Source: Marinobacter nauticus
GTDB lineage: Bacteria; Pseudomonadota; Gammaproteobacteria; Pseudomonadales; Oleiphilaceae
Assembly: GCF_003634635.1 (NCBI RefSeq)
Contig: NZ_RBJB01000002.1
Location: forward strand, 930,001-994,000
DNA: 64,000 nt
Direction of reading: 5' to 3'
The notes below the pieces were generated by a model. The model worked only from the letters and a program-made list of their open reading frames with translations, was not told the origin of the DNA and did no database searches. Position numbers and translations under genes: made by a program. Each line of letters opens with the position of its first letter. Position 1 is the stretch's first letter. Below are positions 12,331 through 17,790 of this stretch, piece by piece.

Positions 12331-13695
12331 ATGAAACTGAACGGCGGACCACCACCCTTACCCCCGAAACAGCCCGCGCCGGACCAGCCCCCCCGGAGTC
12401 CGGCCGCGGTTACTCCCGGCACCAGCACGGCGCCCGGGGCTGCGCTTTCGGCCAGACAACAACTGGCCCAGTTACAGCTGGCTGATCGGGAGACAGCGTT
12501 GGCCAAAGTGGCCGAGATCCTGAGGCAGAAAGGCGGGGGCCATGAGCTGTTGCTGGAACTGCGCGGACAATCCCTGAAAGTCGCTGCCGGCAACCAGCCA
12601 CCGGATCTGTCCGTGGGCGATCTGATCAAGGTCATGCGGGCCGGTAACGAATTGCAGCTGATAGGCAAGCTGGCGCCGGGCCAGGAGAGTGCCGTTGCCC
12701 GGGCCCTGGCCCAGCGACTACCCTGGCAACAGAGCCTTCAGGCTGGCCTGACGCAACTGTTCAGCGCCCTGAGCCAGGGCCTGAAACTGCCCCCCCCACC
12801 CGGGCAATTGCCATCTACCACCAGCGCACAGCCTCTGCCAGCGCCTGCACAGCAGGCCTTGCAACAGCTGATCAACCAGTTACCCAAGGCTGACGCCCTG
12901 GCGCCAGGCGCCGGCAAGACCGAATCCATGGCCACTCAGGTGCGGCAGTGGTTGTCTGAAAGCGGCCTGTTTTCCGAGGCTCGAGTGCTACAGACCGGCC
13001 CTTCCGCCGCCAGCCAACCGGATCTTAAACTGGTACTCGCAAAGGTGGTGTCGGCTTTGCTCACCAGCCAGAACCAGGGGCCGGAGCAATTCAACCGGCT
13101 GCCCCCCCTGGCCAGCCAGGATTTGCTAAAGGCGCCATTACAGTTTCCCAGGGCACCAACGCCCGCAGCCTCTCAGAACACCGGGGAACCTGCCACGGTC
13201 GGGCAGACCCTGCGACTGCTTGCAGGCATGTTGAACCGGATTACGGTAAACCAGTTGCACAGCCAGACCTTGAATGCCAGGGCCGGCGGCGAACCTGGCG
13301 TGCCCGTGAACACTCTGCTGATTGAACTGCCATGGTTAACGCCGCAACAGGAACCCCGAACGGCACAATTGCGACTGGAACAGTACTCACAGGAGAAAGA
13401 CGGCAACAAACGACCGGAACGGACCAGTGCCAGTGAGTGGCGACTGTCCCTGTCTATGGATCTGGACGATGCGGGCCCGCTGCATTTCGATGTCACCTTC
13501 CGGCCGCCGTCCGTGAGCGCTATGGTCTGGGCTGAAAATCAGGCCACGCTTAGAACCGTGCATCGCGAGCTGCCGCTGCTGCGCCAGAGCCTGAACGACC
13601 TCGGGCTGGAAGTTGCTGACCTGGATTGTCGCAGGGGCAGCCCTCAGCAGATGCAAACCCGGCTGGAGCACCGACTGGTGGATACCAAGGCATGA
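12331..13695 (+). CDS. FliK-like hook-length-control family protein (second FliK)
   Basis: This 454-residue protein starts with a Pro/Gln/Ala-rich region, has a long Gln/Leu-rich middle, and ends with a folded domain (about residues 350-445). The segment WRLSLSMDLDDAGPLHFDV and the following helices resemble the FliK C-terminal domain. A TTG start at 12307 is possible, but ATG at 12331 is preferred. The stop overlaps the start of an FlhB-like gene (ATGA). The main fliK of the flagellar cluster is at 39460-40644, so this is a paralogue. Its pairing with an FlhB C-terminal domain repeats the FliK-FlhB partnership of export switching, which suggests a modulating role; that is inference. Confidence 0.75.
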   Translation: MKLNGGPPPLPPKQPAPDQPPRSPAAVTPGTSTAPGAALSARQQLAQLQLADRETALAKVAEILRQKGGGHELLLELRGQSLKVAAGNQPPDLSVGDLIKVMRAGNELQLIGKLAPGQESAVARALAQRLPWQQSLQAGLTQLFSALSQGLKLPPPPGQLPSTTSAQPLPAPAQQALQQLINQLPKADALAPGAGKTESMATQVRQWLSESGLFSEARVLQTGPSAASQPDLKLVLAKVVSALLTSQNQGPEQFNRLPPLASQDLLKAPLQFPRAPTPAASQNTGEPATVGQTLRLLAGMLNRITVNQLHSQTLNARAGGEPGVPVNTLLIELPWLTPQQEPRTAQLRLEQYSQEKDGNKRPERTSASEWRLSLSMDLDDAGPLHFDVTFRPPSVSAMVWAENQATLRTVHRELPLLRQSLNDLGLEVADLDCRRGSPQQMQTRLEHRLVDTKA

Positions 13696-14012
13696 CCGAA
13701 AACGCACAGAACAATATCCCGGCCGCTGTCGCCCTCAAGTACGACGGTGAACGGGCACCGGTTATCTCGGCAACCGGCACGTGGGAACTGGCCGAGGAAA
13801 TCATCCGGATTGCCCGCGACAACAATGTTCCGTTGTACGAGAATGCCGAGCTTGCCGGCATTCTGGCGCGTCTGTCGCTGAATGAAGAGATTCCGGAAGA
13901 GTTGTACCGGGTGATCGCGGAGATTCTGGCGTTTGCTTTCCACATCCGGGGCCGGACACCCGGAGATGCCCGGCCAGAAGAAGATAACCCGTCAGTGGAT
14001 CAGGGAACGTAA
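13692..14012 (+). CDS. Stand-alone FlhB C-terminal-domain protein
   Basis: This 106-residue protein aligns by eye with the cytoplasmic domain of FlhB/EscU just after the autocleavage site: PAAVALKYDGERAPVISATG corresponds to AVALKYD in the true FlhB of this window. The rest (NNVPLYENAELAGILARL) also matches the domain. There are no membrane segments, and the autocleaved NPTH is absent, so it resembles the product left after FlhB cleavage. The start is fixed by the ATGA overlap with the FliK-like gene. Its 3' end overlaps the convergent AAA ATPase gene by 21 bases. Stand-alone copies occur in other flagellates and can stand in for the FlhB C-terminal domain; the role here is inferred. Confidence 0.85.
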   Translation: MTENAQNNIPAAVALKYDGERAPVISATGTWELAEEIIRIARDNNVPLYENAELAGILARLSLNEEIPEELYRVIAEILAFAFHIRGRTPGDARPEEDNPSVDQGT

Positions 14013-15095
14013 CGCCCAGGCCTGTTGCCAATGCTCACCTTTGCGTGGCGCCACAGTGGTATCGAAGTAATGCTTCAGGCGTCGGCGGTCCTCCGGCTGA
14101 TCCTTCAGGGCCGAGCCTATAACGTGGTGCATCATGTGTTCAACGGTCATGGCGCCGCCACCGTAATACCACGCATTCAGGCTGGCGGCGTGGGCCACGG
14201 ATACCGCCTCGGCGGTGGACAGGGCCGCCCCTGCCAGCCGGTCGGTGCTTCGCCCGTCCAGAGTCTGCCCGTTACGCAATTCGTGGAAGATGGTCACCAG
14301 CACTTCCACCACCGACTGCTCCAGCGCCACATCGATTCCGGCACGCCGGTTGGCTCTGGCCACTTCCCGAAGAACCACATCGATCTCATCGTTCAGGTGC
14401 CGTATCGGCCGGATTTCCTCAAAGTCCATCCGTCGTTTCAGGGCCGCACTCATGCTGTGAACACCCTCATCAACACTGTTTGAGGTGGCCACCAGGTTAA
14501 AGCCTTCCCGTGCCAGAATAACGCCGTCGTCCCCCGGCAATTCCGGGATCACCACGACCCTGTCGGAAAGTACAGACAGCATGGCATCCTGCAGCGCCTG
14601 CGGGCAGCGGGCGATTTCTTCAAACCGGACCAGCTGCCCCTCCATCATGCCCCGCAACAGCGGGGTTGGCACCAGCGCCTTTCGGCTGGGGCCCTCGGTA
14701 CGAAGCAGAGCTTCGTTCCAGCTATAGAGCAACTGGCTGACCTGGCTGATGGCGCCGCCCTGCAAGGTCAGCGTGGAATTACCCGAAATCGCCGCAGCGA
14801 GCAGCTCCGACAGCCAGGATTTGGCCGTACCCGGCTCCCCCACCAGCAAGCACCCCCGGGACGTACACAGGGAAATGATGATCCGGACCACCATGGCCCG
14901 GTCGGCGACAAACTTACGCTCTATACCCAGTTTTTCATCGCCCAGCAGAAACTTCTCGACGGCCCGGGGCGACATCAGCCAGCCAGGAGGCATCGGGCCC
15001 GAATCCATGGACATCAGTTTGTCCAGTTCCTCGCGATAGGTTACTTCTGCCGGCTCGCGCTGGGCTGCCTTGTTGTTGGATCTGGTATTTTTCAT
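13992..15095 (-). CDS. MoxR-type AAA+ ATPase
   Basis: This 367-residue protein has Walker A GEPGTAKS (about residue 81 onward), Walker B LVRFEEI and sensor 1 NLVATSN. The segment VHSMSAALKRRMDFEEI is typical of the MoxR/AAA family of chaperone-like ATPases. The C-terminal half is helical. MoxR proteins usually act with VWA proteins, but none is adjacent; the Bat operon is more than 9 kb away. It shares 4 bases with the upstream methyltransferase-GspE fusion, so the two are co-translated. The substrate is unknown. Confidence 0.85.
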   Translation of the reverse strand: MKNTRSNNKAAQREPAEVTYREELDKLMSMDSGPMPPGWLMSPRAVEKFLLGDEKLGIERKFVADRAMVVRIIISLCTSRGCLLVGEPGTAKSWLSELLAAAISGNSTLTLQGGAISQVSQLLYSWNEALLRTEGPSRKALVPTPLLRGMMEGQLVRFEEIARCPQALQDAMLSVLSDRVVVIPELPGDDGVILAREGFNLVATSNSVDEGVHSMSAALKRRMDFEEIRPIRHLNDEIDVVLREVARANRRAGIDVALEQSVVEVLVTIFHELRNGQTLDGRSTDRLAGAALSTAEAVSVAHAASLNAWYYGGGAMTVEHMMHHVIGSALKDQPEDRRRLKHYFDTTVAPRKGEHWQQAWALRSLIH

Positions 15096-17371
15096 CCGAT
15101 ACTCCTGCGGCCACCACGAACTTCCGGAGCCATGCGCTCCCTGGGCAGAATTCGGGGCAACTCAGCCAGCGGAATGATGCCCTCGATGACATGATCCAGG
15201 GCACTATCCCGCATGGTCACAAGGCCGGCATCCAGCGCTCGCCAGCGCAGCTCCCCGATGGGCGGCTGACTGGAGATGGCATTACGGATATCCGAGTCCA
15301 CCTCCATGTACTCCACAATCGCAACCCGACCCTGGGTACCCCGGCCGTTACACTTGTCGCAACCCTCCCCTTCAAAACACCGGAAATCCGCCGGCGCACC
15401 GTCCGGGAAAACCTCCGCCATAATGGCAGGATCGGGCCTGGCCGGCTTGCGGCAATGCTTGCAGATTCGCTTCGCCAACCGTTGCGCAATCACTGCCAAC
15501 AATTCGCCGGCGATGGAGTTGGGATGAACGCCCAGGTCGTAAAGTCTCTGCAGGGAATCCACGGCGTCATTACAGTGCAGTGTGGAGAGCACCACGTGAC
15601 CGGTCTGAGAGGCGCGAATGGCTTCCAGCGCGGTCTCCTGATCCCGGATTTCACCGACAAGGATGACATCCGGGTCTTCCCGAACAAACGCCCGCATGGC
15701 ATCGGCAAAACTGAACCCGATTTCAGAACGTACTCGGGTTTGCTGGATGTTGTCGATGGAGTACTCAATGGGATCCTCCACGGTAATCACCTTACGGCGA
15801 CCATCATCAGCCAGGGTCTGCAGGCCCGCATAGAGTGTGGTGGATTTACCAGACCCGGTCGGCCCGACCACCAGCACCAGTCCAGCCGGGTTATCCAGCA
15901 GGCGCTGATAACGGGAACCAATGGCCGATGACATCCCCAACTCAGCGATGGTCATTGCCCGACCGGTTTGCGGCAACAGACGGATAATCGCGTTCTCACC
16001 GTGCAGTGAGGGCTGGGTCTGGATCCGCAAATCGTAGGAGGTGTCTCCGAGCTGTAGCCTGGAACGCCCACCCTGGGGTAACCGGTGCTCGGCGATATTC
16101 AGCTCCGCCCGGAGCTTGATGACGTTGATAACGCCTCGAATTTCCCGGGCCGACAACTGGTATTGCGGTAAATCGTGCAGATCGCCATCCACCCGCAAGC
16201 GAATACGCACCCGGTTCTCATACTGTTCGATATGAATATCACTGGCCTTCTCGCTGACGGCATCCAGCAGAATAGCCTCATACACAGACACCAGATACGG
16301 GCTGATGTGTTTGTTGCTGTCCTTGCCGAGCAGATCCTTGCCCGATGTCTCCGGTTTTTCGGTGCTGCCCACCGACACGCCATGCTCCGCCACAAAGCGG
16401 CTGCCTTTGACAGTCAGATCCAGCGCCGACCAGATCCGCCGGAAGTCCGTCGGTGTCACCAGCAGACAGACAATTCGATGCTTGGGTGTCAGCCGTTCCA
16501 TCTGATCGGTGCGTGCATCCGGGTCGTCGGTGACCACGGTCAACGTGCTGTCCTCTTCCGACACCGGGATCACGCGGGAGAGATCCAGAAAGGTTCGGGA
16601 AAAACGCCGGAACAGGTCCGTATTCAGATGACTGAGTACGTCATCACCATCGGTAAACGTCATGCCCCGCTGCTGAGCAAGAGACCGGTAGAGATCAATC
16701 TCTTCCAGATTCAACCGGCGACGCAGGACATCCAGCACCCGTTCGTTTTTAGTCGCCGCCTCGGTGCGGGCATCCGCCAGTGCCGCTTCGGAGACCACGC
16801 CAAGATCAATCAGAATCTGTTCGGAGTTACGGTTGAAATCCACCCAGCCCAGAGTTCTGACCCGCTCCAGCTTGTCGCCTTTGCGCTGGAACATGGCGAC
16901 ACTGGGCACCGGCCCCGCCCGACCCTCCAGGCACACCAGATTCCCCCCCTCGCGCAGGTTCGGCAGAAGCGCCTTGGGATCCTGGATGAAGGTCGTACAC
17001 AGAATCAGGTCACAGGGCGAGTCCAGTTCCAGCCCGGTATCTGCCGAGGCCTCAATGACATCCACATTATGGACGCCGTGCTTGAAAAAGCGCTCGCGGG
17101 CTTTCTCCACCAGCGCCGGGTTGCGGTCAACATAGACCACCCGGTGAGCCAGATCCGCCAGCACGGCGGTCACATAACCTGAGCCGCCCCCAACGTGCAT
17201 GACGACCTGGTCAGGCTCGATCTCTGGCATCAGGCTCAGCAGGTGTCGAACCGTTTCTTCTCTGGGGATTGAGTGGCCGGTGATGGAGGGGACAAGATCG
17301 GCACCGGAAACGAAATCGGGGCGGGAAACAACAGCGAGGGCCTCAACGGCCCTCTGATAGAGCTTCTTCAT
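15092..17371 (-). CDS. Fusion protein: methyltransferase-like, MshEN and GspE/PilB secretion ATPase domains
   Basis: This 759-residue protein appears to combine three parts. Residues about 10-175 look like a PCMT-type (protein-L-isoaspartate) methyltransferase Rossmann domain, with motif I HVGGGSGY (59-66), acidic VYVDRNP and CDLILCTTF. Residues about 180-320 look like an MshEN/GspE N-terminal region (LGVVSEAALADARTEAA). Residues about 350-750 are a GspE/PilB ATPase: Walker A GPTGSGKS (503-510), Walker B VILVGEIRD, His in STLHC, and a metal-binding tetracysteine (637, 640, 671, 674). No pseudopilin, PilC or secretin gene is nearby. It follows DUF2802 by 26 bases and overlaps the AAA ATPase. 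Function is unknown; the ATPase half is certain, the methyltransferase activity is not. Confidence 0.85.
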   Translation of the reverse strand: MKKLYQRAVEALAVVSRPDFVSGADLVPSITGHSIPREETVRHLLSLMPEIEPDQVVMHVGGGSGYVTAVLADLAHRVVYVDRNPALVEKARERFFKHGVHNVDVIEASADTGLELDSPCDLILCTTFIQDPKALLPNLREGGNLVCLEGRAGPVPSVAMFQRKGDKLERVRTLGWVDFNRNSEQILIDLGVVSEAALADARTEAATKNERVLDVLRRRLNLEEIDLYRSLAQQRGMTFTDGDDVLSHLNTDLFRRFSRTFLDLSRVIPVSEEDSTLTVVTDDPDARTDQMERLTPKHRIVCLLVTPTDFRRIWSALDLTVKGSRFVAEHGVSVGSTEKPETSGKDLLGKDSNKHISPYLVSVYEAILLDAVSEKASDIHIEQYENRVRIRLRVDGDLHDLPQYQLSAREIRGVINVIKLRAELNIAEHRLPQGGRSRLQLGDTSYDLRIQTQPSLHGENAIIRLLPQTGRAMTIAELGMSSAIGSRYQRLLDNPAGLVLVVGPTGSGKSTTLYAGLQTLADDGRRKVITVEDPIEYSIDNIQQTRVRSEIGFSFADAMRAFVREDPDVILVGEIRDQETALEAIRASQTGHVVLSTLHCNDAVDSLQRLYDLGVHPNSIAGELLAVIAQRLAKRICKHCRKPARPDPAIMAEVFPDGAPADFRCFEGEGCDKCNGRGTQGRVAIVEYMEVDSDIRNAISSQPPIGELRWRALDAGLVTMRDSALDHVIEGIIPLAELPRILPRERMAPEVRGGRRSIG

Positions 17372-17397: not shown

Positions 17398-17790
17398 TCA
17401 GGCCGCCTGTCGCCGCTTCAGGGCAGATACCAGTTCGGCCTCCGGACGGGAAATTCCGCAGGTATTCATAAGATCGTCGATATCCGCGCCAAGATCAACC
17501 AGTCGCGCGGCTTCGTCGTAGGAAATTCGCAACGGATCATTCTGCCGCATTTCTTCCAGAGTGTTCTTGAGCTCATGAATCTGCCGCTCACAGGCTACCA
17601 GGCGCTGCCCCACGCCGAGGCTGCCACTGGTAGTGGCATGCAGTTCACGGCCAAGGGTATCGCAACGTTGTTTGACAGAAGCCTGCAAGGCCCGGATACG
17701 ACGGCCATGGATAATGCCCTGAACCAGAACCAGGGTGATGGCTGCAGCGGTCAGGCCCCAGGGGAGCCAGGAGGGAATGGTGAAACTCAT
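17398..17790 (-). CDS. DUF2802 domain protein
   Basis: This 130-residue protein has one N-terminal membrane segment (about residues 8-26), then a coiled-coil-like stretch and a C-terminal helical motif (YDEAARLVDLGADIDDLMNT, then CGISRPEAELV). This matches DUF2802, found at the end of polar-flagellate chemotaxis operons after cheW. Its role is unknown; the C-terminal part looks like a small helix-turn-helix. It sits 62 bases after cheW and 26 bases before the secretion-ATPase fusion. Confidence 0.8.
   Translation of the reverse strand: MSFTIPSWLPWGLTAAAITLVLVQGIIHGRRIRALQASVKQRCDTLGRELHATTSGSLGVGQRLVACERQIHELKNTLEEMRQNDPLRISYDEAARLVDLGADIDDLMNTCGISRPEAELVSALKRRQAA

Follow-up and report, generated by a model that had tools for sequence, protein, structure and literature searches.

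We analysed a 64,000-nt window of the Marinobacter nauticus genome (assembly GCF_003634635.1, contig NZ_RBJB01000002.1, positions 930,001–994,000) and in it a two-gene locus. Its first gene encodes a fusion protein, here PGspE, in which a PIMT-fold head and an MshEN-like domain precede a PilB/GspE-type assembly ATPase; the gene downstream encodes a YehL-type MoxR AAA+ ATPase. Both lie on the minus strand, and several stops interrupt reading of the plus strand over 15092–17371. An initial annotation, made from the sequence alone, had proposed a methyltransferase-like domain fused to an orphan secretion ATPase. Its domain anatomy stands, but it overlooked the minus strand, the overlapping MoxR gene and the platform genes present elsewhere in the genome. 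The features of the pair are:

15092–17371, minus: gene for PGspE, 759 residues (reading frame, Pfam, alignment)
16838–17371, minus: PIMT-fold N-terminal domain, residues 1–178 (Pfam PCMT; structure matches to 3lbf and 8qby_t)
17264–17266, minus: Pro36, at the place of the PIMT catalytic Ser (alignment with 3lbf)
17177–17191, minus: GxGxG (G61, G63, G65) of the S-adenosylmethionine (SAM)-fold motif (invariant, 37/37)
16382–16834, minus: MshEN-like domain, residues 180–330, without the cyclic di-GMP (c-di-GMP) motif (Pfam, structure match, motif scan)
15158–16291, minus: PilB/GspE ATPase core, residues 361–738 (Pfam T2SSE, E 1e-109)
15839–15865, minus: Walker A, residues 503–511, GPTGSGKST (alignment of 37)
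15350–15463, minus: tetracysteine metal site, Cys 637, 640, 671 and 674 (invariant in 37)
15095–15145, minus: C-terminal tail, ERMAPEVRGGRRSIG (MAPExRGG at the protein end in 64 of 75 rows)
13992–15095, minus: YehL-type MoxR AAA+ gene, 367 aa (Pfam, sequence identity, gene neighbourhood)

A fusion gene and its MoxR partner

Pfam orders the domains of PGspE as PCMT (residues 34–147, E 6e-16), MshEN (250–317, E 3e-12) and T2SSE (361–738, E 1e-109). An AlphaFold2 model of residues 1–342 reached a mean predicted local distance difference test (pLDDT) score of 85.9. In the full-length model (overall mean pLDDT 67.8, predicted template modelling score 0.45) the ATPase part was too weak for detail; despite this, the identity of the ATPase is clear by sequence.

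Relatives were collected by scanning one genome per species with short conserved peptides, a search that is not exhaustive and that yielded 74 loci. One of these (L080), with 29% identity, proved to be an ordinary secretion ATPase and was removed, leaving 73. Another (L073) begins within the ATPase, close to the end of a contig, so that its fusion is unseen, and L079 carries a deletion, described below. Interruptions occur in L022, whose head is broken by a stop near codon 115, and in genome G403, with one TAG inside its match to the N-terminal model; these may be pseudogenes or sequencing errors. The remaining relatives align nearly full length at 46–89% identity. Their titles name Marinobacter, Wenzhouxiangella, Alishewanella, Rheinheimera, Alkalimonas, Halopseudomonas, Pseudomonas, Halomonas, Parahaliea, Porticoccaceae, unassigned Gammaproteobacteria and one Myxococcales; many are metagenome-assembled genomes (MAGs), whose taxon labels may be wrong. 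The fusion occurs in some marine and salt-loving bacteria. In the Myxococcales protein (L074) Pfam finds PCMT and T2SSE, with no MshEN at 1e-5. Recurrence of the PIMT-MshEN-GspE architecture at 46–89% identity in about ten genera argues that the fusion is not a chance event. With Pfam, structure matches and invariant residues all in agreement, down to the tetracysteine site, PGspE is firmly a true fusion of the kind first proposed.

The pairing with MoxR is the other firm result, the strongest clue and the main finding. A search for the same domain order elsewhere, as the initial annotation suggested, allowed the neighbours to be listed, and it is nearly invariant that MoxR adjoins: the gene begins −6 to 66 nt past the fusion match in 71 of the 73 relatives (67 complete, four cut by contig ends). 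In the window its ATG overlaps the TGA of the fusion gene by 4 nt (ATGA), with AGGAG at 15102–15106. One MAG close to the window's genome carries a deletion (L079:9001–9659) that spares only the beginning of the fusion and the final 24 residues of MoxR; it is either real or an assembly error.

The window MoxR shares 48% identity with E. coli proteins of the YehL type, one of which carries the annotation yehL. A published account of MoxR ATPases (PMC3893208) describes them as chaperone-like and, where it treats the YehL branch, names it without a function. On three annotated plasmids a YehL-type MoxR is accompanied by DUF5682, VWA, SWIM and DUF4132 genes, and on a fourth it is followed by DUF5682 and DUF4132 genes before the stretch ends. 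At our locus these usual neighbours are replaced by the fusion, which stands immediately upstream. A genome-wide search for DUF5682 (not for VWA or SWIM) found it in none of 26 carrier genomes, nor in our own. In a FastTree phylogeny of the MoxRs of 36 complete pairs and five plasmid YehL-type MoxRs (one of the five, L154, comes from an unannotated record), the paired MoxRs split from the plasmid ones with support 1.0. Trees of the fusion ATPase and of MoxR from the 36 pairs have 22 of 33 splits in common, against an average of 0.18 and a maximum of 2 in permutations; common vertical descent contributes to this agreement.

Head, MshEN-like domain and motor

Residue conservation was read from an alignment of 37 sequences, the window protein and 36 of its 73 relatives. 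The predicted Rossmann methyltransferase fold at the N-terminus is present: residues 1–180 of the model match E. coli PIMT (3lbf) with Z 21.3 and root-mean-square deviation (rmsd) 2.6 over 174 residues, and the Pfam PCMT score is 59.2 bits (cut-off 20.3). The fold lies equally near that of a non-catalytic protein, a PIMT-like subunit found in complex I of Paracoccus (8qby_t; Z 21.4, rmsd 4.1 over 182).

The substrate-binding residues of PIMT are replaced. When PGspE is aligned with 3lbf, Ser34 and Pro36 occupy the places of the isoaspartate-binding Thr and Ser of PIMT. Pro fills column 36 in all 36 rows that reach it (the remaining row has a gap), and column 34 is Ser in 31 rows and Gly in five, leaving no PIMT-type Thr/Ser pair. 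In Drosophila, loss of the Ser is reported to abolish PIMT activity; both residues are likewise replaced in the complex I subunit (CI-PIMT) and the inactive RPA2580, together with SAM-contact residues (PMC11522691). Those two are separate proteins, whereas PGspE carries the fold as part of a motor protein, with substitutions of its own (S34, P36). At column 33, 20 rows, the window among them, have His and 16 have Arg; the counterpart in the complex I subunit, Arg59, is said to obstruct the cofactor (PMC11522691). The methyltransferase domain looks to us like a decommissioned enzyme retained for binding or sensing, and the earlier suggestion that it may act only as a sensor is supported.

Residues 180–318 match MshE (5htl) with Z 14.9 and rmsd 3.2 over 137 residues in the model of 1–342. 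MshEN domains that serve as c-di-GMP receptors carry two RLGxx..LxxxLxxQ motifs, for which a relaxed form has been published (PMC5013675). None of the 37 fusions contains the relaxed motif, so that c-di-GMP binding is predicted to be lost and the fusion is unsupported as a c-di-GMP receptor. A single match occurs in paralogue L111. The motif is also missing from the genome's TfpB and GspE paralogues (the PilB paralogue was outside that scan), and the absence is therefore not peculiar to the fusion.

The motor core is intact. Walker A (in which one S/T position varies), GEIRD and Cys 637, 640, 671 and 674 are invariant in the 37 sequences, giving PGspE the features of the PilB/GspE superfamily (PF00437): Walker A, GEIRD/Walker B, what we take to be the His and Asp boxes, and the tetracysteine site. 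PGspE thus shares the order and fold of its MshEN-like and ATPase parts with MshE, PilB and GspE, and differs from them in the PIMT fold in front, the C-terminal tail and the lost c-di-GMP motif.

The tail runs past the usual GspE end as ERMAPExRGG(R)R. Seven of the 11 rows without a terminal MAPExRGG are tail variants paired with MoxR (L048, L063, L065, L068, L073, L075 and L078). The others are L022, whose tail lies past its internal stop, the truncated L079, L080 from outside the family, and L074, which has neither MoxR nor basic tail. Five further proteins of PilB/GspE type, namely four paralogues and L156 (a fusion described below), showed no such tail at their ends. Our guess, which leans on the one negative case L074, is that the tail docks a partner.

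The window contains no PilC/GspF-type platform gene, which bears out the description of the motor as an orphan; the search for distant PilC genes that had been suggested located all three in the genome elsewhere, each adjoining an assembly ATPase. These ATPases are PilB (852 bits, cut-off 676), GspE (712 bits, cut-off 630) and C5, which falls below both cut-offs and which we call MSHA-like from the surrounding platform and pilin-like genes. Two assembly ATPases of the genome lack an adjoining platform gene: PGspE and a TfpB (939 bits, cut-off 850). The latter, a TfpB-type orphan extension ATPase (C7, L112:3172–4977), is distinct from the fusion. TfpB of Acinetobacter baylyi is likewise a PilB-family ATPase present in the cell alongside PilB (PMC8213720), and it is reported to drive extension of the same type IV pilus (PMC8213720, PMC11656802). 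PGspE differs in scoring far below the TfpB cut-off, in a genome that has a separate true TfpB. We know of no TfpB with a PIMT head or a MoxR partner.

Possible roles of the pair

The reading we favour, at a probability of about 0.45, is a two-gene accessory module: an orphan motor that acts on the platform of another system, with MoxR as its remodeller. PGspE would be an assembly ATPase of PilB/GspE type, presumably a hexamer, that drives in trans an existing type IV filament machine, be it a type IVa pilus, a type II secretion system or an MSHA-like pilus. Co-occurrence did not single out one of these three machines, as the related genes are common among carriers. The PIMT-fold head would probably bind or sense a partner, or SAM where the SAM contacts are retained. 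The MoxR would be a dedicated remodelling chaperone that loads, activates or removes the motor, perhaps gripping the conserved C-terminal tail. In favour of this reading are the invariant motor residues, the presence of PilC/GspF genes in all 26 carrier genomes examined, the three platform genes of our own genome, the precedent of TfpB, the near-constant pairing with MoxR and the agreement of the two gene trees, the joint absence of both genes from the 20 non-carriers examined, the retention of the pair in Marinobacter without detectable FlhA, and the altered PIMT head. MoxR/GvpN-vWA pairs are reported to accompany archaeal type IV pili (PMC4858521).

Were this so, a PilB/GspE-type motor would have a dedicated AAA+ partner and a regulatory head derived from a methyltransferase, filament motors could be controlled by chaperones and recycled enzyme folds in addition to c-di-GMP and PilZ-type cofactors, and the YehL branch of MoxR ATPases would gain a concrete, testable partner. 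Our searches of open-licence PMC text listed no paper with the fusion or the fusion-MoxR pair in its title or abstract; known parts are here found in an architecture and a gene partnership for which those searches brought up no paper.

Several observations weigh against this reading. PGspE reaches none of three equivalog cut-offs, for PilB (TIGR02538: 413.5 bits, cut-off 675.65), GspE (TIGR02533: 416.3 bits, cut-off 630.25) or TfpB (NF053534: 346 bits, cut-off 850), which places it on a separate branch whose behaviour cannot be read from those families. The flanks inspected, part of whose genes were run against Pfam, showed no recognisable platform or pilin gene next to the pair, and they differ between genera. 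PilB scored above its cut-off in only 23 of 28 carriers; the five misses (G387–G391) are all MAG loci, so incompleteness may explain them. L074 has a fusion with no MoxR in the 8.3 kb examined. The pair is also patchy within Marinobacter (53 of 100 genomes) and hence dispensable.

A soluble machine for quality control or remodelling, with PilB-like and MoxR rings working on cytoplasmic clients and no pilus or secretion system involved, is considerably less probable. The PIMT fold would read the clients, for instance their isoaspartyl damage. The near-obligate MoxR pairing and the lack of recognised filament genes nearby fit such a machine, as does the catalytic degeneracy of the head. PIMT folds that serve as binding modules are known, among them CI-PIMT (PMC11522691) and PCMTD1, which appears with CUL5 in PDB 9oma and is reported to have no detectable isoaspartate-specific methyltransferase activity (PMC11514484). 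Against it, the motor core, the four-Cys site and an MshEN-like domain are all retained as in filament motors, and a PilC/GspF platform gene occurs in every one of the 26 carrier genomes examined (of 73 relatives), though 13 of 14 control genomes have one as well, these genes being common.

Roughly as doubtful is a single functional unit of a PilB-type ring and a MoxR ring, in which the pseudo-PIMT head would read a molecular signal, be it isoaspartyl damage, the level of SAM or a partner protein. Protein damage or methyl-donor status would then gate the assembly of filaments or the remodelling of clients. The literature searched contained no description of such a PilB-type/MoxR machine.

The proposal that an active methyltransferase is coupled to a secretion motor and modifies a surface or machine protein fares worse and appears improbable. 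Part of the SAM pocket is kept: G61, G63 and G65 of HVGGGSGY are invariant and residue 82 is acidic (D or E) in 37 of 37 sequences. The Asp-Gly pair by which PIMT contacts SAM (PMC11522691) falls at columns 109–110 in the 8qby alignment; the window protein has S-A there, and of the 37 rows 23 keep Asp and 15 keep Gly. More of the SAM site is retained in Wenzhouxiangella. Purifying selection acts on the domain, though less strongly than on the ATPase or MoxR; in five Marinobacter comparisons dN/dS was 0.09–0.20 for the head, 0.01–0.05 for the ATPase and 0.05–0.09 for MoxR, values that are only rough because dS exceeded 1 in every comparison. Loss of the PIMT Ser is compatible with methylation of another substrate. 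Against an active enzyme stand that Ser itself, replaced by Pro in every row reaching it, and the S-A of the window, as well as a normal Pcm retained in the same genome with TLS at the catalytic place.

Control of the motor by c-di-GMP enzymes encoded alongside it is improbable to a similar degree. Of 33 loci beyond the main Marinobacter group, 10 have a GGDEF/EAL-containing family near the pair (L044, L047, L049, L050, L051, L055, L069, L075, L077 and L078; six of 13 members of the family were checked with Pfam), and in Alishewanella L050 a GGDEF-EAL frame overlaps the longest frame of the fusion by 4 nt. The 10 of 33 is a raw count and serves as a lead only. GGDEF/EAL genes are abundant in these bacteria, and the receptor motif is missing from all the fusions.

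The Marinobacter site and wider distribution

At the window's locus the pair lies between DUF2802/cheW genes and FlhB-like/FliK genes. In flagellated Marinobacter the edges of the site are:

17398–17790, minus: DUF2802 gene (Pfam, site comparison)
13626–14012, plus: FlhB-C-terminal-like gene (Pfam, site comparison)

The N-terminal model matches at 1e-60 in 53 of 100 Marinobacter genomes, our own included, and in 50 of the 90 of good quality. We examined 20 of the 47 non-carriers, good assemblies selected by eye. In all 20 the DUF2802 gene adjoins the FlhB-like gene, with both pair genes missing, and an intact YehL-type MoxR was found in none. One non-carrier (G467) has a 71-residue MoxR relic with stops between the two edge genes, and two others have distant MoxR-type matches at 26 and 29% identity. 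Fusion and MoxR are gained and lost as one unit. The occurrence of carriers and non-carriers in one genus with a clean empty site makes the effect of the pair directly testable.

That flanking position could suggest a flagellar or chemotaxis accessory, a very improbable function that we reject as the main one: the pair persists among other neighbours in unrelated genera and at 61% identity in Marinobacter segnicrescens (L048), and FlhA, found in 14 of 26 carriers, was not found in the other 12, including five Marinobacter (L010, L028, L037, L039 and L070) that keep the pair next to ccmA with the flagellar and chemotaxis neighbours gone. The pair's retention in these flagellum-less Marinobacter marks the flagellar neighbourhood as incidental. 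Just upstream of the pair in L028 (8160–8966) and similarly in L010 and L037 is a MinD/ParA-like gene, possibly a flagellar number regulator left behind when the flagellar cluster was lost.

A class-wide survey, in which at most five candidates per genome were scored, gave matches at 1e-25 in 83 of 369 genomes. Only those in our own genome and G347 span both the PIMT and MshEN parts; the other matches listed end at or before model position 181, inside the PIMT part. No relative was found in viral contigs (64 pattern matches, none confirmed), and none of 546 plasmid records matching at 1e-60 covers 80% of the fusion, on which grounds we rejected a phage or plasmid origin. In PADLOC, residues 30–154 matched mad2 at 60.9 bits and the P-loop drew two weaker matches, while MoxR had none at 0.01. 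We took the matches as common methyltransferase and P-loop homology and rejected a defence system.

A second PilB-like ATPase with a regulatory domain in front, here REC instead of a PIMT fold, was noted in the flagellum-less Marinobacter G373 (L156:795–3041), a response-regulator/MshEN/GspE fusion of 748 aa. Open frames of 748–751 aa with similar PilB-model scores are present in G371, G372 and G374. After MoxR in L047 (6469–7593) comes a gene of the baeRF (bacterial release-factor-like) family, which also occurs at three more Wenzhouxiangella-type loci.

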